A stretch of DNA of 64,000 nt, taken from NCBI GenBank assembly GCA_035517655.1, contig DATIYJ010000024.1, positions 1-64,000 of the forward strand, read 5' to 3'. Shown here piece by piece: positions 50,677 through 64,000 of the stretch (within the stretch, counting starts at the first letter, position 1; each line of letters starts with the position of its first letter). The notes under the pieces were generated by a model, which saw only the letters and a program-made list of their open reading frames with translations, did no database searches and was not told the origin of the DNA. The translations under genes and the position numbers were made by a program. The DNA comes from Nitrospiria bacterium (GTDB lineage: Bacteria; Nitrospirota; Nitrospiria; JACQBZ01).

Positions 50677-52002
50677 ATGCGATTGACCCTGATCAAGAAG
50701 ATGCTTCTCGGATTTTCAATCATGGTTCTTCTGACCCTGTTGACCGGTCTGTATGCCGTCTTGAGCCTCCGGGACCTTCGTCGAATGAGCGACAACATTG
50801 TCGAATGGGACCTTCCCATTATTGAGACCACCGCTCAGATGACCGAGAACTTATTGGCGGAAGACCTCTATGAGAAACGCTCCGTCATACTTCGGGACCC
50901 GGCGGTCCAAACCCTCTTCTTAAACCGAAGCGATGAATTCCGGCTGAAACTGGCCCAGTTAAATTTAATATCTCCCGAAGACCAAGACCTCAAAGGGCGA
51001 ATCCAGAGCCTTCATCAGCAATACGACCAATTTTTTAAAGAAGAACAGGATTACCTCAATCGCAAAGAGGAGTCGATGGCGAAGGCCGTTTCAGAAGGTC
51101 CCATGCAGTCCCGACTGAACGAAATGGTCCAATTGCTACGGGAGCTCGAACGCCGCGGACGTGATGATCAAAATGCCAAGACGCGTCTCGCCAATCAATT
51201 GAGTCTTCAGGCGTTTAACATCACGGTGGTACTGGTGACCATCAGTTTTTTTTTCGGAGTCGGATTTGCCGTGTTCATCAATTCGAATCTCACGTATTCG
51301 ATCAAACAGCTTCAGGAGGCTGCGCATTATATCGGCCAGGGGCTGTTTGACCGAGCCTTGAACGTCAAGGCAACGGAAGAAGTTCAGGAGTTGGCGGACT
51401 CTTTTCGTTGGATGTCGAAGCGGCTGAAGGAACTGGGGGAGATGAATCTCGATGCCAATCCCCTCACGCGGCTTCCAGGGAATCTGGCGATTGAAAAGGC
51501 GCTTTTGACCCGACTTCAGGAAGCGGTGCCGTTTGCGTTCTGTCTTGTCGATGTGGATAACTTCAAGGCGTTTGGCGATCGGTACGGCTATATCCGGGGC
51601 AGCGAGGTTTTGAAAAAGGTGGCCGCCATTTTGTTCGACGCGGTCAGGACGCTCGGATCGGCATCGGACTTCCTCGGACATATCGGCGGGGATGACTTTG
51701 TCATCATTACGGATCCACCGCGGATGGAAAAGCTGTGCGAAAAAGTCATCCATGATTTTGATAAAGCCATTCCGGATTTTTACGACGAGGAAGACCGTCG
51801 AAGAGGTTATATTATTTCCCGCGACCGCAAGGACGTCGAACAACAGTTCCCGTTCATGACGGTTTCGATTGCGGTCGTCACGAACCAGAAACGCGTGATC
51901 ACCAGTCCCATGCAGGTCGCGGAGATCGCCGCTCAACTCAAACAGTACGCGAAGACCTTCCCCCGCAGCGTGTACGTCGTGGATCAACGGAGGACCGTTT
52001 GA
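50677..52002 (+). CDS. Membrane sensor protein with divergent GGDEF (GGDDF) domain
   Basis: A 441-aa protein. Two membrane helices (about 8-28 and 175-200) flank a helical periplasmic sensor; a HAMP domain (SIKQLQEAAHYIGQGLFDRA) and a C-terminal GGDEF domain follow. The domain starts NPLTRLPGNLAIEK and its active loop is HIGGDDFVIIT. No RxxD inhibitory site precedes it (SASD at that place). This divergent subgroup may make little c-di-GMP or act as a receptor; activity is uncertain. It overlaps the lipoprotein gene by four bases. Confidence 0.87.
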   Translation: MRLTLIKKMLLGFSIMVLLTLLTGLYAVLSLRDLRRMSDNIVEWDLPIIETTAQMTENLLAEDLYEKRSVILRDPAVQTLFLNRSDEFRLKLAQLNLISPEDQDLKGRIQSLHQQYDQFFKEEQDYLNRKEESMAKAVSEGPMQSRLNEMVQLLRELERRGRDDQNAKTRLANQLSLQAFNITVVLVTISFFFGVGFAVFINSNLTYSIKQLQEAAHYIGQGLFDRALNVKATEEVQELADSFRWMSKRLKELGEMNLDANPLTRLPGNLAIEKALLTRLQEAVPFAFCLVDVDNFKAFGDRYGYIRGSEVLKKVAAILFDAVRTLGSASDFLGHIGGDDFVIITDPPRMEKLCEKVIHDFDKAIPDFYDEEDRRRGYIISRDRKDVEQQFPFMTVSIAVVTNQKRVITSPMQVAEIAAQLKQYAKTFPRSVYVVDQRRTV

Positions 52003-52514
52003 ACATATCTGAATGGATGGTGCCGATCGGCCGCCGGTTTCATCGCCGGTCCCGCCTCGGGGGGGCCGGAGTATTCGTTCTCCTTCAATTTTTGTCAAGC
52101 TGCGTTGGTTTAACATCGCCGGAACTACCGACCGCGACCGCGGCCGCGGATCACTTCAAAAGGGGCGAAGTTTTTTTTGAAGAGGGCAAGTATGCCGAGG
52201 CCATTAAGGAATACCGATACGTGGCGGCTCAATTTCCGAACGAAGACCTTGCATCCGACGCGCAGTACAAGGTGGCGTACACCGAAATCTATTTTAAGAA
52301 TGCTGCTTCCGACTATGGGATGGCCGAGAAAGATTTTCAGAAGTTGATTCAGAAGTACCCGAACAGTCCCTGGAAAGATCCGGCGCAGAATTGGTTGAGT
52401 TTTTTAACCCAGATGGAGTTGTTAAAGGCGGACAAGGAAAAACTCAAGGACGATCTGCAACGATTGCTCGACCTGGATATGCAGTCCGAGAAGAAGCGGC
52501 GTGAGTTGAAATGA
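51999..52514 (+). CDS. BamD/YfiO-like TPR lipoprotein
   Basis: A 171-aa lipoprotein. The hydrophobic signal GAGVFVLLQFLSSC ends in a lipobox Cys; a TPR repeat region (ADHFKRGEVFFEEGKYAEAI; YRYVAAQFPNEDLASDAQYK; FQKLIQKYPNSPW) and a charged C-terminal coiled coil follow. It is shorter than BamD and may be a paralogue or a partner of the sensor protein encoded upstream. The TTG start, in TTGA overlap with the upstream stop, has GGAGG five bases before it; an ATG at 52017 is possible but lacks a site. Confidence 0.8.
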   Translation: MNISEWMVPIGRRFHRRSRLGGAGVFVLLQFLSSCVGLTSPELPTATAAADHFKRGEVFFEEGKYAEAIKEYRYVAAQFPNEDLASDAQYKVAYTEIYFKNAASDYGMAEKDFQKLIQKYPNSPWKDPAQNWLSFLTQMELLKADKEKLKDDLQRLLDLDMQSEKKRRELK

Positions 52515-54749: not shown

Positions 54750-56390
54750 GTGTCTTCTGTAAACATCATGGAGAGCATATTCAAAAATCCCGGGCGTTGG
54801 GTCAAAACCCACACTCCTTTTTTTGAAATCGGTTCATCCGCACGGAGCGCCTTCGTCCGTTTTCTGGTTGTTTGCCTGACCCTTGCTTCGACCGTCTCTT
54901 CCGGCCGGCCTGAAACTTCCGCGCTCTCTCTTGAGGACCAGATCGCCCGAGCACAGTCGGAGCTCGCGCTCATTAAAACGGAAATTATTCATCGGTATCA
55001 GTCCAACACCGCCGAGTTGGAACCATCGGATCCGTCGGCCGTCCGATCCTCACATCCGGAGACGAGGAACATTGTTGCGGAGGGGGAACTTTCCGGAGAC
55101 GGAGCCTCGCAAAGCATGGAGGCCAGGCTACGGGAAATAGCCGTCCTGATAAAACGCTTGGAGACGGGGGGCGATTCCTCTTTATTGTTCAATGAGGTCG
55201 GTCCGCCTTCGACCGATGAGATTCGGCTTTTGTTGGCGGATCGTCTGCTGCAGGCGAATCTTACTTCCCAGGCAGAGCAGGTACTGAACAATGTGGTGGT
55301 TCAAACCCGTCGTGCGCCGATCGCGGCCGAGGCGTGGTTTCGATTGGAAAAATTATACTATCGGAAAGGCGATTATCCCCGCGCCCTTGGGGCGTTCTTC
55401 AAGATTCCAATGGATAAGACATTTCCGTGGCGACAGGAAGCCACCTACTTGGCCGGCAACAGCGACCTTTATCTTAAGGAGTATCTCAAGGCGATCGACC
55501 TCTTGGGCAATGTCGGCGAAGGCAGCGAGTACTATCCTTTTGCGGTGTATTCAAGCGGCCTGGCCTACCTAAATTTGGGAGATGCCTGGTCTTCGACTCA
55601 GTTACAGTTTCAAAAACTCACCGCGTTGAATCCGGGAGAGGATTCCGTCCTCCGGGAATTAATCAACAAGACGCGTGTGACCCTCGGATTTTTCTTCATC
55701 GATCAAAAACGCTATTCGGAAGCCATGGCCGTCTTCGAAGCGATTCCTTCCGAGAGCCGGTATTGGGTCCAGGCTCGCTTCGGGCTTGGCAAGGTTTTTA
55801 TGGGTATCGGGGATTGCGTGAAAGCCATCGTCGTCTACAACGACCTGATCGACCAGGCGCCCACCCATCCTTATGCCCTTGAATCCCGCCTCCAGATCGG
55901 TGCTTGTTATTCAAAATTGAGTGCCTACCATCGGGCCGTGGGCAGTTATCAAGAGGCCTTAAAAGCCTATTCCGAACGATCGGAGGGCTTAAAAAAACTG
56001 ACCCAACAAATTCAGGCCACGGGCGTGGAAAGTTGGCTTTTTGCATCGGGAGTGGAGAAGACGGAAACGGGGTTCGATCTGGAACCCGGATTTGCGGAAT
56101 TAGTGGACATGTATACCGATTGGCTTCGACTGCACAAAGAGATCGCCGAGCCATTCCAAGGGGATAAAAATCATGCACCGCGCGAAACGGAGCGCGGCTC
56201 GTTGGCGGACGATAAATCGCTTCAGATGAAAATGGAGGATGTCCACGAAGATTTGATCCGATTACTCCGAGCCTCCGCAACCCGCCATCTTTCGTTCCAA
56301 CTGGCCCGGATTGACGGACTGGCCCTCCGTGCGAATATGGGCATCGCCAAGAATATGACATTCATGCAGGACCATGAGACGGCGCCGTAG
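54750..56390 (+). CDS. Exported TPR-repeat protein of the Exb-type gene cluster
   Basis: A 546-aa protein that opens the cluster. A hydrophobic segment (SAFVRFLVVCLTLASTVSSG, about 31-50) acts as signal peptide or anchor. A helical region then leads into TPR repeats between about 150 and 420 (EAWFRLEKLYYRKGDYPRAL; IDQKRYSEAMAVFEAIPSES; QARFGLGKVFMGIGDCVKAI; SKLSAYHRAVGSYQEALKAY). The C-terminal 120 residues are helical and non-repetitive. The GTG at 54750 or the ATG at 54768 may start it. It overlaps the next gene by 17 bases. Periplasmic scaffold is the likely role. Confidence 0.8.
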   Translation: MSSVNIMESIFKNPGRWVKTHTPFFEIGSSARSAFVRFLVVCLTLASTVSSGRPETSALSLEDQIARAQSELALIKTEIIHRYQSNTAELEPSDPSAVRSSHPETRNIVAEGELSGDGASQSMEARLREIAVLIKRLETGGDSSLLFNEVGPPSTDEIRLLLADRLLQANLTSQAEQVLNNVVVQTRRAPIAAEAWFRLEKLYYRKGDYPRALGAFFKIPMDKTFPWRQEATYLAGNSDLYLKEYLKAIDLLGNVGEGSEYYPFAVYSSGLAYLNLGDAWSSTQLQFQKLTALNPGEDSVLRELINKTRVTLGFFFIDQKRYSEAMAVFEAIPSESRYWVQARFGLGKVFMGIGDCVKAIVVYNDLIDQAPTHPYALESRLQIGACYSKLSAYHRAVGSYQEALKAYSERSEGLKKLTQQIQATGVESWLFASGVEKTETGFDLEPGFAELVDMYTDWLRLHKEIAEPFQGDKNHAPRETERGSLADDKSLQMKMEDVHEDLIRLLRASATRHLSFQLARIDGLALRANMGIAKNMTFMQDHETAP

Positions 56391-59300
56391 AAAAAATCAG
56401 TGGAGTCGGGATTCCGCCCCGCTGGCGTGGATGGTGCTTGTTGTGACCGCGCTATGGATTGAACTGGGCGGGTGTTCTTCTTATCGAAAACCGGACGAAT
56501 TGGACCCGCAAAAGATTAAAACTGTTGTGACAGAAGTGATGGAAGATCAGACCGCTCCCGCTTCCAAAGACTATACGCTGAAATCTCTGGACGAATATGA
56601 GAAGAATCTCTTCAACGATTTCGGGCAACGGAGTGAGCTCCGAGCCAAAACCATGCATCGGTTGGCCGATCTCTATCTTATGCTGGAGGACTTGTCCTAT
56701 CGTCATCAGCTTCAACGATACAACCAACAACTCCGCCAAGTGCAACAGAGCCGAGTGGGGGCGCGTCCGGTCCTTCCCCAAATCGATCATACGCGTTCCC
56801 GGAAGACCTATGAAAAACTACTGGCCCAGTATCCCGACCGGCCTGAAAATGATCGGGTGCTCTATCAGTTGGCTCATGTATATGACGATGAGGGTCAGAC
56901 GGAACAGGCGATGGCTTCGTTGCAACGACTGGTGGAGCGTTACCCTTCCAGCCCGTTGCGGTTAGAGGCGGTCTTCCGGCTGGCCGAGGCGTATTACGAT
57001 TCGAATCAATACCGACAGGCGAGGGCCGCTTATGAACAGGCGGTCAACGCGAAGGATCCCGGTCTCGCGGAACAGGCGATGTATAAGTTAGGCTGGACCT
57101 ATTTTTCGCTTCAGGATTATGAGAACGCGGTGGCGATGTTTGTTCGTCTGGTCGATCGGAAGCGCGTGATGAAACCCGACGGACAGTCGCAGCTCGATCC
57201 AAAGGTCATGTCGGCCGCAGAATGGGATGAAGTCTTGGAATGGATTCGCAGCATGGCCCTTTCTTTTTCATATCTGGGGACGCCGATTAAGATCCAAGAT
57301 TATTTCGAAAAAACGGGCCACCGGGATTACGAAGCGCTCATCTATCGGAAACTAGGCGATCTGTACATTGCCCAGAAACGGGTGCAAGATGCGGTAGGGG
57401 CTTATGATGCCTTCATCAGAACCTATCCCCTCCATCCCGATGCCCCCGCCGTGCAAATGCAGATCGTGGAAGCCTATCAACAGTTAAAATTGGTGGATCT
57501 GGCCAACCGCGCTCGGATGAATTTCGTGGATCGGTTTGGTGAAGGAAGCCTCTGGTATCAAAAGGCCTCGGTCGACGCGCGAGAGAAGGTCCGGCCGTTC
57601 TACCGGGGACTTGTCGGCCAACTGGCCCTGTTCTACCACTCTGAAGCCCAGCAAACCAAACGGCCTGCGGATTATGAAACGGCTTTGGCATGGTACCGAC
57701 GCTACCTGAAGGTGTTTCCGAAAGAGCCGGATGCGCCGCGGATGAACTTTCTCTTGGCGGAGGGTCTCTTTGAACTGCAGCGTTACAGCGAAGCCGCGGA
57801 CGAATATGAGCATACCGCCTACAATTATTTTCTTCATCACGACAGCGCCGAATCGGGATACGCCTTTATCACCACGCTGGATAAAATGATGAGTCGGGAC
57901 GGTCAATCCTCTGCCACAAGCCCCCTGGCCACCCGACTGGCCCAGAGTTGCAAGCGGTTTGCGGAGGCCTTCCCCAATGACGCCCGCGTGGCGGCTGTTC
58001 TTTGGAAAGGGGCCGAGACCTACTACCGCGTGGGGAACTTCCCGGGGGCCCGTTCCATGGCCGAGATGATTGTGAAGACCACGCTGCCGTCCGATAACGC
58101 CGCATCCAAAGCCCAGCGACTGATCGCCCAAACCTATTTCGAATCCGGGGCGTACGAGCAGGCCGCCGGGGTCTATCAACGCTTGGTTCGGAGCGGAGGG
58201 GAGGCGAAAGAGGAGAAGGCGTTGAGACAATTATGGGCTTCGGCGCTGTATAAGCAGGGCGAGGTCTTTAAAAACGCCGGCAAGTTGCGGGAAGCGCAGA
58301 CGGCGTTCATGCGGGTTCAGGCGGAAGTCCCGGGGAGTGAGGTTGCGCCGGTGGCGCTGTACGATGCGGCCAGCGTGGCCCTGCTCCGAAACAACGTGGA
58401 CGAGGCGCTGCAGCTGTTTCAGATTCTGGTTCAACGCTATCCCGCACATTCGTTAAGCCAAAAAGTCCCCGAGGTCTTATTGCAGGTGGAGCGAAATCTT
58501 TTGGAGGCCGGGAAAGTTCAGGAGGCCCGGGCCTTGTCGGAGAAGATCAAAACGATCCAGGTTTCAACGGAGGAGGATTTAGCGTATCGGTCCGAACGGC
58601 TCCTGGCGGATCGCTATTTTGAGGAAAAGGCCTATGAGCAGGCGGCCGCCACTTACAGCAAATTAGCCCAAGGTGAAGCCTCGGTCAAGAATCAAGAGCG
58701 GGAAGAGCTAAAGCGATTGTGGGCTTCCGCCTTGTACAAACAAGCCGAAGGTCTCAAGGCGGCCGGAAATCTTAAGGAGGCGCAAGACGGTTTTATGAAG
58801 GTTCAAGCGGAGGCAGCCGGAAGCGAAGTGGCGCCGGTGGCGCTGTTTGATGCCGGAAACGTTGCCCTCTCTCGGAATGATCAAGACGGGGCGGTCCAGG
58901 CTTTTACGATCTTGCTGAGAGAATATCCCACCTCCGCCTACAGTCCTCATGCAACGATCCAAGTGGCCCGAATCCATGAACGAAACGGCCGTTTGCAGGA
59001 GGCTGCCCGAGACTATGCATCTGTGGTAAAATTAAACCTGGATCGAAAGACCACAGGGGAAATGTTACTGGCATCCGGTCGGCTTTACGAACAACTGGGA
59101 GATTGGGCGAAAGCCGAAGAGGTTTACGGCATCTATCTTGGTCAATATTCGGGAGAGTATCAACAGGTCGTCGAAACAACGTTTAAGCTGGCCTGGGCGA
59201 AACTCCAGCAAAACCGTCCGCAGGAAGCCCTGCCGATTCTCCAGACCATTATCGACCGATACGGACAGGGTGATGCGGCGGCATCCCCGGCGGCCTACTA

Positions 59301-59778
59301 TGTCGCCAAGGCACATTTATTGAAAGCGGATAACCTCGCGACCCAGTTTGACGCCGTGCGGCTCGTTTCGCCTCTCGAACAAAACCTGGCCCGGAAGAAG
59401 GCATTGCTGAAAGACGTCCTGGAGGAATACGCCCAGGCGGCCGACTTCAATGTCGCCGAGGTCACGACGGCCGCCACCCAGAAAATCGGGATGGTGTTCG
59501 AAAAATTTCGAACCGCCCTCCTGGAATCCGAGCGACCACAGAATTTAACACCCCAGCAACTGGAGCAGTACAATTTTCTTCTCGAAGAACAGGCCTATCC
59601 GTTTGAAGAAAAGGCCATTGCGGCGTATGAAAGCAATGTTCATCGAGCGCAACAGTTGGGTTTGTACGATGCCTGGATCAGGCAGAGCTACGACGATCTG
59701 GCGCGGTTGATGCCGGCCCGGTACCGTAAGCCGGAACTGGACGAAATTATCCATGGGGAACCGGCCTTAAACCCATGA
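56374..59778 (+). CDS. Giant TPR lipoprotein (1134 aa) of the Exb-type gene cluster
   Basis: A large lipoprotein: basic start MRRRRRKNQW, hydrophobic segment MVLVVTALWIELGGC ending in a lipobox Cys, then TPR repeats over nearly its whole length. Clear repeats include NDRVLYQLAHVYDDEGQTEQ, PLRLEAVFRLAEAYYDSNQY and EQAMYKLGWTYFSLQDYENA. A long unit is duplicated inside: LWASALYKQ at about residue 620 and again near 782, each followed by a FMxVQAExxGSEVAPVAL stretch. Length and architecture resemble the TPR components of myxobacterial gliding and YbgF/Tol-like systems. Probably outer-membrane anchored on the periplasmic side. It overlaps the next gene by four bases. Confidence 0.85.
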   Translation: MRRRRRKNQWSRDSAPLAWMVLVVTALWIELGGCSSYRKPDELDPQKIKTVVTEVMEDQTAPASKDYTLKSLDEYEKNLFNDFGQRSELRAKTMHRLADLYLMLEDLSYRHQLQRYNQQLRQVQQSRVGARPVLPQIDHTRSRKTYEKLLAQYPDRPENDRVLYQLAHVYDDEGQTEQAMASLQRLVERYPSSPLRLEAVFRLAEAYYDSNQYRQARAAYEQAVNAKDPGLAEQAMYKLGWTYFSLQDYENAVAMFVRLVDRKRVMKPDGQSQLDPKVMSAAEWDEVLEWIRSMALSFSYLGTPIKIQDYFEKTGHRDYEALIYRKLGDLYIAQKRVQDAVGAYDAFIRTYPLHPDAPAVQMQIVEAYQQLKLVDLANRARMNFVDRFGEGSLWYQKASVDAREKVRPFYRGLVGQLALFYHSEAQQTKRPADYETALAWYRRYLKVFPKEPDAPRMNFLLAEGLFELQRYSEAADEYEHTAYNYFLHHDSAESGYAFITTLDKMMSRDGQSSATSPLATRLAQSCKRFAEAFPNDARVAAVLWKGAETYYRVGNFPGARSMAEMIVKTTLPSDNAASKAQRLIAQTYFESGAYEQAAGVYQRLVRSGGEAKEEKALRQLWASALYKQGEVFKNAGKLREAQTAFMRVQAEVPGSEVAPVALYDAASVALLRNNVDEALQLFQILVQRYPAHSLSQKVPEVLLQVERNLLEAGKVQEARALSEKIKTIQVSTEEDLAYRSERLLADRYFEEKAYEQAAATYSKLAQGEASVKNQEREELKRLWASALYKQAEGLKAAGNLKEAQDGFMKVQAEAAGSEVAPVALFDAGNVALSRNDQDGAVQAFTILLREYPTSAYSPHATIQVARIHERNGRLQEAARDYASVVKLNLDRKTTGEMLLASGRLYEQLGDWAKAEEVYGIYLGQYSGEYQQVVETTFKLAWAKLQQNRPQEALPILQTIIDRYGQGDAAASPAAYYVAKAHLLKADNLATQFDAVRLVSPLEQNLARKKALLKDVLEEYAQAADFNVAEVTTAATQKIGMVFEKFRTALLESERPQNLTPQQLEQYNFLLEEQAYPFEEKAIAAYESNVHRAQQLGLYDAWIRQSYDDLARLMPARYRKPELDEIIHGEPALNP

Positions 59779-60479
59779 CCCGCTGCGGTTTCAGGAAAAC
59801 GCGCTTCATTCCAGCCCTTCTGAGGGCCACGCTGGCAGGGGCCATTGTATTTGGGGCGATCGGCTGCGCCCCGGTGAATATTCCCAGTGGTTCGGCCGCC
59901 CGGAGCCCCGCGAATAACGAGGCGCCCGGCTCCCAAACCGGCTTGCCGGGAAAGGGGGGGCTTCGTTCGCGTTACGGGCAGGGGATCTCTTATTTGGAAC
60001 AGGGAAAGCTAGAAGAGGCTCAAAGGATTTTTGAGTCTCTGGTTCAATCCAATTCCGATCGGATGGAGATTCATAACGCATTGGGGATTCTTTATCGCCG
60101 ACGGGGGATGTTGGACAAGGCTGTTGCGGAGTACACGAGGGCGATCGAGTTGTCCGAGCCGTTGTCGTCGACTCCTTCGGGGCGCGCCGAATCCGCCGAA
60201 CTGTACAACAATCTGGCCATCGCCGATCGTGAACGCGGCGATTTTCGAAAGGCGGAAGAGGCGTATGAAAAATCCATTAAACGCAACCCCGATTTTGCAG
60301 CCGCCTATTACAACCTGGGCGTGCTGTACGATCTCTACCTCGACCGACCTTCGGACGCCGTGCGGTGCTATCGGGATTACGAACGACTGACCGGTCAGAA
60401 TCAGACCGTGGATGTCTGGATCGCGGATCTGGAACAAAGGACGACGCGCGGGACGGGAGGCCCCGTTGGGAAGCCGTAA
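59775..60479 (+). CDS. TPR lipoprotein of the Exb-type gene cluster
   Basis: A 234-aa lipoprotein. The signal region LLRATLAGAIVFGAIGC ends in a lipobox Cys; after a Ser/Gly/Pro-rich linker come three TPRs (GQGISYLEQGKLEEAQRIFE; IHNALGILYRRRGMLDKAVA; YNNLAIADRERGDFRKAEEA; AAYYNLGVLYDLYLDRPSDA). It overlaps the 1134-aa gene by four bases and the next small gene by 14 bases. Its role is probably scaffolding in the periplasm beside the other TPR proteins. Confidence 0.87.
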   Translation: MTRCGFRKTRFIPALLRATLAGAIVFGAIGCAPVNIPSGSAARSPANNEAPGSQTGLPGKGGLRSRYGQGISYLEQGKLEEAQRIFESLVQSNSDRMEIHNALGILYRRRGMLDKAVAEYTRAIELSEPLSSTPSGRAESAELYNNLAIADRERGDFRKAEEAYEKSIKRNPDFAAAYYNLGVLYDLYLDRPSDAVRCYRDYERLTGQNQTVDVWIADLEQRTTRGTGGPVGKP

Positions 60480-60840
60480 CATCAAGCGGAGGGTGCTCGG
60501 AATCGTTGCGACGGTCTGGCTGGCCGCCGCCGGGTTGGCGTATGCCCAGGAGCCGGCGGAAGCGACGCGGAAAAACCCCGACACTTTCCAATTGAAGGAA
60601 ACCGAAATTACGGGAAAATTAAAGGACGTCCTGGGGTCCCTCAAGCTGTTGGAAACCGAAGTGGTCGGGACGGTCGAGCGTCCGCGGTTGAGTTATTCGT
60701 TGCCTTGGAAGGATCCCGATCCGTTATTGCTGGATGAAGGGGAGATGCAAGGCGTGTTTCTCGAGGAGATTTACACCCCGTTGGATAAAGACACCTACAG
60801 CCAAGCAATACGGTCGGAGAAGGCGCGTCAGGCTCCATAA
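60466..60840 (+). CDS. Small exported protein of unknown family in the Exb-type cluster
   Basis: A 124-aa protein with signal peptide MGSRNIKRRVLGIVATVWLA followed by AAGLAYA and likely cleavage before QEPAEA. The mature part has two similar short units, FQLKETEITGKLK and LKLLETEVVGTVERPRLSY, then SLPWKDPDPLLLDE and FLEEIYTPLDKDTY. No family is recognised. The TTG start is chosen because GGGAGG lies five bases upstream, inside the preceding gene. It sits directly before exbB and is probably a periplasmic partner of the motor. Confidence 0.72.
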   Translation: MGSRNIKRRVLGIVATVWLAAAGLAYAQEPAEATRKNPDTFQLKETEITGKLKDVLGSLKLLETEVVGTVERPRLSYSLPWKDPDPLLLDEGEMQGVFLEEIYTPLDKDTYSQAIRSEKARQAP

Positions 60841-60857
60841 AACGGAAAGGAGACCCC

Positions 60858-61547
60858 ATGGATATTTTTAATGTCATCGGCAATTTTTTTATTGAGGGCG
60901 GGTTTTTCATGTACCCCGTCCTTTTCATCGCCGCTCTGGGAACGGCCATTGTGATCGAGCGGATGCTCTATATCACCCGCGCTTCGGCCAACGCGGAATC
61001 TCTTTGGCAAAAAGTCCGGGCCGCCCTGTCGGATCAACGGATAGACGACGCCGTCAAGCTCTGCCATTCCAGTACGCGCCCCATCTATCGCGTGTTGTCG
61101 GCGGGCTTGAAGGCGGCGAAACCTTCGGGCGCGCGTGAACCGATCCAGCGATCGATGGAAGAGGCCATGTTGGAGGTCTTGCCGCCGCTGGAGCAGCGGA
61201 CGGCGTACCTTCCGATTCTGGCCAACGTGGCGACCTTGTTGGGACTGTTGGGAACAATCATCGGCGTGATCCAGGCCTTTTCGGCCGTCTCCGCCGCGGA
61301 TCCCTCGCAAAAAGCCGTCCTCTTGGCCCGCGGAATCTCGGTCGCACTTAACATGACCGCCTTCGGTTTGATGGTTGCCGTTCCATTGATCCTGTTTTAT
61401 GCATTCCTACAATCCAGAACCACGAAGATTGTCGATTCGCTGGATCAATATTCGACGAAGCTGATCAACTTTTTTGCAAATCGTCAGACGGGGGTTACCC
61501 CGGAGAGGAGTCAAGGACATGCTGCCGCGGTCCCGAAGACGAGCTAG
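60858..61547 (+). CDS. MotA/TolQ/ExbB proton channel family protein
   Basis: A 229-aa inner-membrane stator protein. Helix 1 is YPVLFIAALGTAIVIERMLY (about 14-35), followed by a long cytoplasmic loop; helices 2 and 3 are VATLLGLLGTIIGVIQAFS and NMTAFGLMVAVPLILFYAFL. The Thr residues lining the proton path in TolQ-type proteins are present in GLLGTIIG and NMTAFGL. It forms a pentamer around two ExbD-type subunits in the family; here two different ExbD-like genes follow directly. Overlaps the first by 29 bases. Confidence 0.92.
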   Translation: MDIFNVIGNFFIEGGFFMYPVLFIAALGTAIVIERMLYITRASANAESLWQKVRAALSDQRIDDAVKLCHSSTRPIYRVLSAGLKAAKPSGAREPIQRSMEEAMLEVLPPLEQRTAYLPILANVATLLGLLGTIIGVIQAFSAVSAADPSQKAVLLARGISVALNMTAFGLMVAVPLILFYAFLQSRTTKIVDSLDQYSTKLINFFANRQTGVTPERSQGHAAAVPKTS

Positions 61548-62019
61548 ACGGATGGAGTCCACCGAGATCGATCTGACCCCGTACATGAATCTGTTGGTCG
61601 TGTTGGCGCCGTTTCTCCTCATCACGGCCGTATTTACCCGGTTGTCGGTTCTGGAGATCTATTTGCCGCCTCCGGCATCGGCCGAATTAATGAGCACGTT
61701 GCCGTCGCCCGAAGAACAGCTGGTTCTCACGATATCGATCACGGAGAAAGGCTTGGTGGTGGCCAACGGGAACAAGATCATCAGTTTGATTCAGCCGACC
61801 GTAACGGGGCACGACCTGCCGGCGCTCACGGCCGTGCTTGAGCAGATCAAGGCCCGGTTTCCGACGGTGGACAACGCGATTGTTCTCAGCAAACCGGATA
61901 TTCCGTATAATGAACTGGTTCAGGTGATGGACGCGACGCGGGTCGCTTTTGTAGTCACCGAAGGGAAGAAGACCAGTTATTCGTTGTTCCCGAATATTTC
62001 TCTGGGAGAAATCCAATGA
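61519..62019 (+). CDS. ExbD/TolR-like protein lacking the membrane Asp
   Basis: A 166-aa ExbD/TolR protein. A very basic cytoplasmic tail (MLPRSRRRARRMESTEIDL) leads to a single helix TPYMNLLVVLAPFLLITAVF and a periplasmic domain (EEQLVLTISITEKGLVVANG; PYNELVQVMDATRVAFVVTE). At the place of the proton-carrying Asp in ExbD and TolR (TPLVDVVLVLL-type motif), this protein has Asn24 (codon 61588-61590). The ATG is preceded by GAGGAG. It overlaps the second ExbD-like gene by four bases. Confidence 0.9.
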   Translation: MLPRSRRRARRMESTEIDLTPYMNLLVVLAPFLLITAVFTRLSVLEIYLPPPASAELMSTLPSPEEQLVLTISITEKGLVVANGNKIISLIQPTVTGHDLPALTAVLEQIKARFPTVDNAIVLSKPDIPYNELVQVMDATRVAFVVTEGKKTSYSLFPNISLGEIQ

Positions 62020-62537
62020 GAAGAAGCCCGATACGGCCCCGGTCTCGATTCTCGGAACGCCGGAAGGGATCCACGACGGTTTCTACGGTCTTAACCCTCA
62101 CCTCGCTCGTGGACCTGTTTACGAACCTGGTCCTGTTCCTGCTCTATAATTTTTCGGGGGACGCCTCGGCCATTCCTTCCGCCGAACGGATGAAACTCCC
62201 CGAATCACTGGCCCAGTTAACGCCGCAGACAACCTTGACCGTCATGATCACCCAATCCGATATTCTTGTGGACGGAGTAAAGGTGGCCGAGATCCCTCAG
62301 GTCTTAAAGGAGAGCGATCTTTTGATTCCGGCCCTCAAAAAAGAAATGGACTATGCGGCCGAGAGGGGGAAATATTTTGCAAATCCCAGCGCCGGCAAGC
62401 CCTTTGAAGGTCGGGTCACGATACTGGGAGATAAAAATATTCCGTTTCGATTGCTGGAGAAGGTTATGTATACTTGCAGCCAGGCCGAGTTCGGGCAGAT
62501 TGACCTCGCCGTGATTCAGAAAGAGTCCACCGGATGA
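62016..62537 (+). CDS. Second ExbD/TolR-like protein with the membrane Asp
   Basis: A 173-aa ExbD/TolR-type protein. A basic tail (MRRSPIRPRSRFSERRKGST) leads to the helix LTSLVDLFTNLVLFLLYNF, with Asp33 (codon 62112-62114) at the expected proton-carrying position. The periplasmic domain (TTLTVMITQSDILVDGVKVA; VTILGDKNIPFRLLEKVMYT) matches the family. Unlike its neighbour it keeps the Asp, so it could be the active half of a heterodimer. It overlaps the genes on both sides by four bases. Confidence 0.9.
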   Translation: MRRSPIRPRSRFSERRKGSTTVSTVLTLTSLVDLFTNLVLFLLYNFSGDASAIPSAERMKLPESLAQLTPQTTLTVMITQSDILVDGVKVAEIPQVLKESDLLIPALKKEMDYAAERGKYFANPSAGKPFEGRVTILGDKNIPFRLLEKVMYTCSQAEFGQIDLAVIQKESTG

Positions 62538-63574
62538 TTTCGATTTGGGGCGGCCAAGACGGCGACCAAGAGTTTAAACGTATCGCCTGGGTCTGCGTTT
62601 TTGTGTACGGTGCAGTGGCTCTGATCCTCAACCTTCTGACGGTCAAAATACCCGCGCGATCGGACTACACCCGGATCGATCCTCGCATCGCCAAATTAAT
62701 CATCGAAGCTTCAAAACCCGTATCCCCTCCCGTCCCGAAGGTGAAGAAAGAAGAACCGAAAGTCGAGGACAAAGGCAAGACGGAGAAAAAAGCGGAGCCC
62801 AAATCCGAACGGCCCAAAGAGCCGGCTCCGGAAGTGGCCAAACAGGAGGGACCCACTCCCGAAGAAATACGGGCACAGCAAGAAGCCCTGCGTAAAAAAA
62901 ACATGGAGGTGGCGATGAACAGCGGGCTGCTCAAGCTTCTCAAGCAGACCGCCGCCAAAGCGGACAGCATACCGGATCAAAAGCTGAAAAAAGTTTTCTC
63001 CGAGATCAAGGGTCTTAGCGAAGCGCCCAGGACAACATCCGGCGTGGCCCCTCAAACCCAGCCCACCGCCAGCCAAGGAATTGATGATATCGTGTCCAAG
63101 CTTGAAAAATCGATCAAGGCATCGGACGGGACTTCAGGAGATTCGACCTTGGGCGGCAGCGGCGGGATCGGTCAAATGATCGGAAGCGTTCAGCCGGACC
63201 TGGGATCATCGTCCCTTGCGGAACGGAAAACCACACGGGTGGACAGCCCATTTCAGATCAAAGGCTTTGAAGAGGGCAAGAGTCCGAGAGATTATGAGTC
63301 GATCGCGCAGGTGGTCGATTCGTACAAAGACGGGATCAGTTTTCTTTACAATAAGACCCTTCGTGAAAACCCGACGCTCCGGGGTACGGTGACGGTCGAA
63401 TTTATCATCGCCGCCGCCGGCGAAGTGATCGACTGTCATGTGGTGTCCAGCTCGGTGAAGAATCCGCCGTTTGAAGAGGCGTTGATCAAACGAGTTCTGC
63501 AATGGAAGTTCCCGCCTGTTCCCTCGGGCGACGTCACGGTGACCTACCCGATCGTGTTTTCCGTTTCTGGATAA
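62534..63574 (+). CDS. TonB-like protein with AgmX/PglI C-terminal domain
   Basis: A 346-aa protein. One N-terminal helix (IAWVCVFVYGAVALILNLLT) is followed by a long Lys/Glu/Pro-rich periplasm-spanning stretch (about 60-130), a Ser/Gly-rich linker, and a C-terminal TonB-like domain: GTVTVEFIIAAAGEVIDCHV and VLQWKFPPVPSGDVTVTYPI. This domain is the AgmX/PglI C-terminal type known from myxobacterial gliding proteins. It would couple motor movement to the outer membrane. Last gene of the cluster. Confidence 0.9.
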   Translation: MISIWGGQDGDQEFKRIAWVCVFVYGAVALILNLLTVKIPARSDYTRIDPRIAKLIIEASKPVSPPVPKVKKEEPKVEDKGKTEKKAEPKSERPKEPAPEVAKQEGPTPEEIRAQQEALRKKNMEVAMNSGLLKLLKQTAAKADSIPDQKLKKVFSEIKGLSEAPRTTSGVAPQTQPTASQGIDDIVSKLEKSIKASDGTSGDSTLGGSGGIGQMIGSVQPDLGSSSLAERKTTRVDSPFQIKGFEEGKSPRDYESIAQVVDSYKDGISFLYNKTLRENPTLRGTVTVEFIIAAAGEVIDCHVVSSSVKNPPFEEALIKRVLQWKFPPVPSGDVTVTYPIVFSVSG

Positions 63575-63611: not shown

Positions 63612-64000
63612 TCACTTGGGCCGTGAATGGCATCGCAAACAATCGGCGAACGGAAAGGCCACCACGCCGTGGCACCGGCCGCAGTATTCTCCCTTGATGA
63701 TCCGATCCATGCTTACCGGGTTGGCTCCTTGTTTCATGATAAAAATGGAAGGATGGCAGTTATTGCAGTTGAGCCACATCGTGTGAGGCGTATGCGGGAA
63801 GACGACGTTGGGCACGGGATAGGCATCCCCGATGTTAAACACGATGTCCAGGTTTAAAATCGGACCGTCCGGGGGGCCGCTCGGATCAATCGAACTTCTG
63901 GGTTTGAGGATTCCTTCTTTGAGAGCGGCCACCCAATCGACATCCCCCGTCTGTCTTTTAGGAAGCGCACGGAAGGCAATCGGATGTCCTTGCGCATCCA
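63612..64000 (-). CDS. Nanowire-type triheme cytochrome c (c7-like), 5' part outside the window
   Basis: The frame stays open to the window edge, so the gene continues beyond position 64000; at least 129 residues are inside. Three CxxCH motifs are visible (CNNCH, CGRCH, CLRCH) near the C-terminus in the pattern FPHTPHTMWLNCNNCHPSIF, then NPVSMDRIIKGEYCGRCHG and VAFPFADCLRCH. This arrangement matches the c(7)-type triheme domain found in repeated form in multiheme cytochromes. The N-terminus, signal peptide and any further domains are unseen. It converges on the TonB-like gene. Confidence 0.88.
   Translation of the reverse strand, partial: DAQGHPIAFRALPKRQTGDVDWVAALKEGILKPRSSIDPSGPPDGPILNLDIVFNIGDAYPVPNVVFPHTPHTMWLNCNNCHPSIFIMKQGANPVSMDRIIKGEYCGRCHGVVAFPFADCLRCHSRPK

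Follow-up and report, generated by a model that had tools for sequence, protein, structure and literature searches.

The question raised by this locus is what an Exb-type envelope motor, packed together with giant tetratricopeptide (TPR) lipoproteins, accomplishes in a member of the Nitrospirota, and whether it represents a machine not yet described. The window, defined here as the whole stretch of 64,000 nucleotides analyzed, begins at base 1 of contig C24 in a 2.65 Mb genome assembled in 71 contigs. An earlier note on this DNA had described eight genes running in one direction from 54750 to 63574, and a check of the open reading frames (ORFs) revealed all eight open on the + strand; neighboring genes overlap by 4-29 bases, save for one 17-base gap, and the overlap of the third and fourth genes is larger if the fourth begins at ATG 60412. 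The parts list of the note was reproduced with Pfam and NCBIfam, which identified TPR in the first three genes, MotA_ExbB in the fifth, ExbD in the sixth and seventh, and AgmX/PglI plus TonB_C in the last; the fourth matched no family. The features are as follows, named by position in the Agl/Glt system.

54750..56390, + strand: GltC-position exported TPR protein, 546 aa (ORF; TPR; weak NCBIfam GltC match, E 0.0018; also the first gene in related loci)
56374..59778, + strand: GltD-position TPR lipoprotein, 1134 aa (ORF; TPR; lipobox IELGGC; alignments)
59775..60479, + strand: GltE-position TPR lipoprotein, 234 aa (ORF; TPR; lipobox VFGAIGC; NCBIfam GltE 2.5e-13)
60412 (ATG) or 60466 (TTG)..60840, + strand: small exported protein x, ~125-142 aa, start uncertain (no family; 86 homologues)
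60858..61547, + strand: AglR, motor wheel subunit of the MotA/TolQ/ExbB family, 229 aa (PF01618, MotA_ExbB, 8e-28; tree)
61519..62019, + strand: first ExbD/TolR subunit, AglQ position (PF02472, 4e-14; DLTPYMN, with Asn at the proton-binding Asp position)
62016..62537, + strand: second ExbD/TolR subunit, AglS position (PF02472, 1e-7; LTSLVD, membrane Asp kept)
62534..63574, + strand: GltG-position transducer, 346 aa (one N-terminal transmembrane helix, Pro/Lys-rich linker, AgmX/PglI-type TonB-like C-terminal domain)
63612..64000, - strand: triheme c7 nanowire_3heme lipoprotein, clipped by the window end (TIGR04257, 2.1e-18; first gene of a convergent redox operon)

Upstream of the cluster and outside it, a 171-aa BamD/YbgF-like TPR lipoprotein is encoded at 51999-52514 of the window, between HAMP-GGDEF and rsmI-like genes.

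The structure predicted for GltD with AlphaFold2 (pLDDT 83) is a long TPR superhelix, and a fold search returned generic TPR superhelices only, with TM-scores of 0.28 or less. The alignments revealed a conserved C-terminal GltD signature, LEEQAxPFEEKAI...W...L. The GltE model was matched in 22/22 homologues; the models for PilW and Tgl, which are other TPR proteins, score alike on the window protein. The Myxococcus-based GltC model was matched by 3/24 members and, as listed, weakly by the window protein. The C-terminus of the last gene product matched the AgmX/PglI domain (NF033768) at 2.9e-24, above the cut-off, and TonB_C at 2.4e-9. The GltG model, matched in 23/23 homologues, scored 1.6e-20 on the window protein, over the C-terminus only and far under the model's own cut-off. 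Protein x contains a conserved ExxGxxExPxxxYxxPWK motif, the remainder being predicted disordered (AlphaFold2 pLDDT 65), and its homologues are located between GltE and AglR wherever both are present.

Judged by its sequence, the cluster is firmly assigned to the Agl/Glt core complex, which it matches in gene content and order, and is not a new type of machine. The core was described by Luciano et al. (2011, PLoS Genet e1002268, PMC3169522) as seven genes (gltC, D, E and G; aglR, Q and S) plus one extra, present in one region in Gammaproteobacteria, Geobacter and Fibrobacter; no function was known for it. As in the window, the seven genes are clustered; the paper adds a gene lacking Myxococcus homologues, for which protein x is a candidate, and its text does not mention Nitrospirota. 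The suggestion of the earlier note that the machine may be undescribed does not hold for the complex itself. The note had named as contrary evidence a prior description of the same cluster with a known function; the complex was described and its function was not known, so only half of that was found. A literature search identified no later paper assigning a function to the core complex.

The TPR genes are conserved beside the motor, and most of the Nitrospirota, gammaproteobacterial and betaproteobacterial loci long enough to show order retain C-D-E-x-R-Q-S-G, a conservation the earlier note had suggested looking for. Since unrelated genomes from different phyla share it, the arrangement is not due to chance. 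Homologues of the giant TPR protein GltD were found in 19/148 Nitrospirota genomes, and the GTDB collection yielded at least 575 stretches with one; the matches listed there belong to Nitrospirota and Pseudomonadota only, and among them Nitrospirota metagenome-assembled genomes carry relatives at 68-76% identity, which places the present genome in that phylum. The search of a plasmid collection yielded one TPR match, which was unrelated.

A phylogenetic tree, built without a few rows that were fragmentary or had long branches, places AglR from the core loci in a single clade (100/99), separate from ExbB and from TolQ, both that of E. coli and the genome's own. This agrees with the proposal of an Agl-type motor distinct from TolQR and ExbBD. 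Because no tree includes Myxococcus AglRQS, membership in the Agl/Glt family rests on gene content, order and models. With an AglR profile, whole-genome matches to core members scored at least 292 bits and those to other family members 102 bits or less. A rival reading would make the cluster a TonB-ExbBD uptake or Tol-Pal system of the ordinary kind, with which it has Pfam families, the motor superfamily and the TonB-like C-terminal fold family in common. However, core AglR lies outside the TolQ and ExbB clades, and the genome has separate Tol and Ton sets: contig C67 carries TolQ and a Pal-like lipoprotein, and ExbB occurs three times in TonB-receptor neighborhoods (C2 twice, C39). The window cluster differs further in its two unlike ExbD subunits, its TPR partners and the absence of a TonB receptor or Pal, and no plug domain of TonB-dependent receptors was found on contig C24. 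TolA and TonB bind their motors through the His of an SHLS motif (PMC12204202); a His of this type is absent from the transducer transmembrane helix in 23/23 aligned GltG homologues. Siderophore uptake, already doubted in the earlier note, other TonB-dependent uptake and Tol-Pal function were ruled out by the tree, the separate Tol and Ton sets and the lack of a plug domain on the contig, leaving this reading with next to no probability.

Gliding motility, another option raised in the note, would be suggested by the motor and transducer family that the cluster shares with Myxococcus gliding, in which AglRQS-Glt likewise comprises one TolQ-like and two TolR-like subunits, TPR proteins and a GltG-type transducer. 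Myxococcus GltG has 640 aa, compared with 346 aa for the window protein and its C-terminal match to the model. Luciano et al. (PMC3169522) tie gliding to the group A glt genes and argue that the core is insufficient for motility alone. The locus contains core genes only, and none of the group A proteins (GltA, B, F, H, I, J, K) was seen in C24 54001-73047 or in C10 5001-24000, the region of a second cluster described below. The motility option was therefore not upheld, and a gliding machine is considered highly improbable here.

The motor itself revealed an asymmetry. The proton-binding Asp site of the ExbD proteins was placed by gapless alignment to E. coli ExbD and TolR. In the first ExbD, this position is Asn in 69/76 core loci, the window included, and Asp in the other 7/76; the second has Asp in 68/68 homologues with letters at the site. 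In contrast, Myxococcus AglQ and AglS are both reported with a conserved Asp (PMC9389320), and the D28N replacement in AglQ halts the Myxococcus motor (PMC3858216). Since the membrane Asp is present in the second ExbD only, one proton-binding site probably drives the axle, and we infer that the two proteins form a heterodimeric axle with a single working site. The natural Asn/Asp pair bears on the question whether AglQ and AglS heterodimerise. An AglR-GltG interaction and proton-dependent work are reported for Myxococcus (PMC3169522, PMC3858216), and the window machine is presumably proton driven as well. In the mechanism proposed, AglR would be an inner-membrane wheel turned by proton flow around an axle of two unlike ExbD-like subunits (AglQ/AglS), and the TonB-like C-terminal domain of GltG would transmit the force through the periplasm. 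The receiver on the outer-membrane side would consist of the TPR lipoproteins GltD and GltE, exported GltC and small protein x. The machine probably assembles, positions or works on electron-transfer proteins of the outer membrane or surface, with the adjoining triheme cytochromes as first candidates. The wheel, axle and GltG steps follow from the family, and the proposed client from the neighborhoods.

The neighbors of the window cluster are the basis for this choice of client. A redox gene set convergent with gltG extends from window 63612-64000 on to approximately C24:70580 (L036:9612-16580) and encodes four triheme c7 nanowire_3heme cytochromes, a cupredoxin, a Big_2 protein and propeller-like repeat proteins, the last recognized by eye. 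These four cytochromes are the genome's only members of the triheme family (TIGR04257) above the cut-off, and the arrangement is kept in close relatives whose contigs extend far enough. In G133, which belongs to another family, a gene for a homologous triheme lipoprotein shares the strand of gltC and lies 12 bases upstream of its reading frame. Triheme cytochromes were found in 19/19 GltD-bearing Nitrospirota genomes versus 77/148 overall (Fisher 1.2e-6, uncorrected for relatedness). All considered, the cluster is read as a complete Nitrospirota Agl/Glt core, a proton-driven trans-envelope force transducer probably acting on redox proteins of the outer membrane or surface, an interpretation we hold slightly more probable than its negation. 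Several points weigh against a redox client. Triheme cytochromes are common in the phylum, and neighbors shared by a handful of close relatives can be kept by descent. In this genus the cytochrome operon runs toward the cluster from the opposite strand, so that the two do not form one transcript. Furthermore, no redox neighbors were seen within reach in some other Nitrospirota core loci (the L040/L041/L046 group). In one Nitrospirota family (L040, L041, L043, L046, L067, L068, L070) a gene named from its sequence as histone-deacetylase-like adjoins the core, with no redox genes in reach.

Neighborhoods were also counted for approximately 100 core loci, many of which end early at contig ends. 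ApbE was found in 33, a TlpA-like thioredoxin in 32, DUF3570 in 23 and an HZS-alpha/PD40 cytochrome in 21, mostly upstream and on the same strand. The series TlpA, DUF4266-like, DUF3570, ApbE and the HZS-alpha/PD40 cytochromes lie upstream in gamma- and betaproteobacteria and in one Nitrospirota paralogue clade. Small proteins ending in GGGCGC among the flank genes fit the description of DUF4266 (conserved C-terminal CXC), a match made by eye and not by a family model. DUF3570 was present in 8/19 GltD-bearing Nitrospirota genomes versus 18/148 overall (Fisher 3e-4, uncorrected for relatedness). An exported protein of ~200 aa without a Pfam family (cl0) was found in 52 of the approximately 100 loci, mostly upstream; lying upstream of gltC, it is another candidate for the extra gene of Luciano et al. 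An example of cl0 is L081:7435-8061, with a conserved region around ELLFP...FFTGxGP..RDYKR.

Meheust et al. (2021, eLife e66878, PMC8238504) described clusters of ApbE, DUF3570, thioredoxin and DUF4266. Of the kinds in their DsbD/DUF3570/DUF4266/ApbE flavinylation clusters, TlpA-like, DUF4266-like, DUF3570 and ApbE genes precede many core complexes and the second cluster of this genome. The main text of that paper makes no mention of tetratricopeptide, ExbB or PglI genes, and the window cluster is without flavin genes. In many genomes the subjects of the 2011 and 2021 papers form a single neighborhood, the motor with TPR proteins being covered in the former and the DUF3570-ApbE flavin system in the latter, and joining the halves yields a directly testable function. 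The literature search found DUF3570 named in no further paper and found none reporting a redox association of the core complex.

The evidence from outside the Nitrospirota also supports a broader reading, in which the complex is a general machine for surface-protein or polymer transport and adhesion, with redox neighbors that are incidental or one client among several. In Myxococcus spore-coat assembly, AglRQS moves Nfs, a Glt paralogue, over the spore surface (PMC3858216). Fibrobacter FSU_2396-2403, listed as OmpA, TPR, TPR, ExbB, ExbD, ExbD and TonB with 2399 not listed, shows higher abundance on cellulose, and an outer-membrane multi-protein complex contains one of its TPR proteins (PMC6851124); this gene set is likely to be the Fibrobacter core complex. 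Since the matching Fibrobacter cluster is linked to cellulose and not to redox proteins, the client may differ among lineages, and several Nitrospirota core loci are without redox neighbors. The gamma- and betaproteobacterial neighbors, however, are mostly redox genes and not polysaccharide or adhesion genes, and the general transport and adhesion machine is judged the rather unlikely alternative to a redox client.

The genome contains a second cluster (G000:C10:5001-24000, L037) in which C-D-E-x-G lies behind TlpA, a small CXC-ending ORF (DUF4266-like), DUF3570, ApbE and a 182-aa exported protein. AglRQS is absent from this cluster, and no AglR other than that of the window was found elsewhere in the genome. 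The genes flanking the missing motor are contiguous, so that an assembly gap is not the cause. The second cluster of G139 (L039) is likewise without AglRQS. In the GltD tree the C10 cluster falls inside a clade in which the remaining members carry the motor, which indicates that the motor was probably lost there, and the window cluster lies in a separate, flavin-free clade. The window AglRQS may also drive the C10 cluster, a proposal that is compatible with a redox client and that we rate as possible, if somewhat less than even. In its favor are the lack of a further AglR in this genome and in G139, the position of C10 among motor-bearing clusters, the unlinked motor and TPR genes of G026 and G001, and the precedent of Nfs, a motorless Glt paralogue that relies on the AglRQS of Myxococcus (PMC3858216), although Nfs is a spore-coat system, unlike the one proposed here. 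Against it, the C10 cluster could be decaying, and four close relatives carry the window type without the C10 type, two of them in small assemblies (1.6-1.7 Mb) that are possibly incomplete. The occurrence of the window type by itself in these relatives argues that the window cluster is self-sufficient and that motor sharing cannot be its basic purpose. Driving the C10 flavin cluster was considered as the purpose of the window cluster and was weakened by the same four relatives.

What was known already is the core complex itself; new are the redox flank, the motorless second cluster, the triheme neighbors and the Asn of the first ExbD, and the passages of Luciano et al. (PMC3169522) consulted have no mention of redox neighbors, motorless paralogues or this Asn. 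The core complex is thought to be the ancestor of myxobacterial gliding, with a function not known in 2011. It may be proposed, tentatively and with the balance against it, that the ancestral Agl/Glt complex was a proton-driven device for extracytoplasmic electron transfer, its asymmetric one-Asp axle energising the assembly, positioning or opening of outer-membrane flavoprotein or cytochrome complexes. The clients would then be DUF3570-ApbE modules in Pseudomonadota and one Nitrospirota clade, and triheme nanowire cytochromes in the clade of the window; if true, gliding motility would be a later reuse of an engine linked to redox work.

Two further arrangements were observed among the loci. 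In gammaproteobacterial loci L077, L084, L098, L099, L103, L134 and L141 the core is preceded by another upstream set, comprised of haem-motif proteins, a LamG-like protein and an exported protein of ~560 aa, the last without a Pfam match and with a twin-arginine-like leader. Other GltD-bearing clusters (L048, L049, L051, L054, L055), which are without adjacent motor genes, encode a longer GltD of ~1170-1210 aa.
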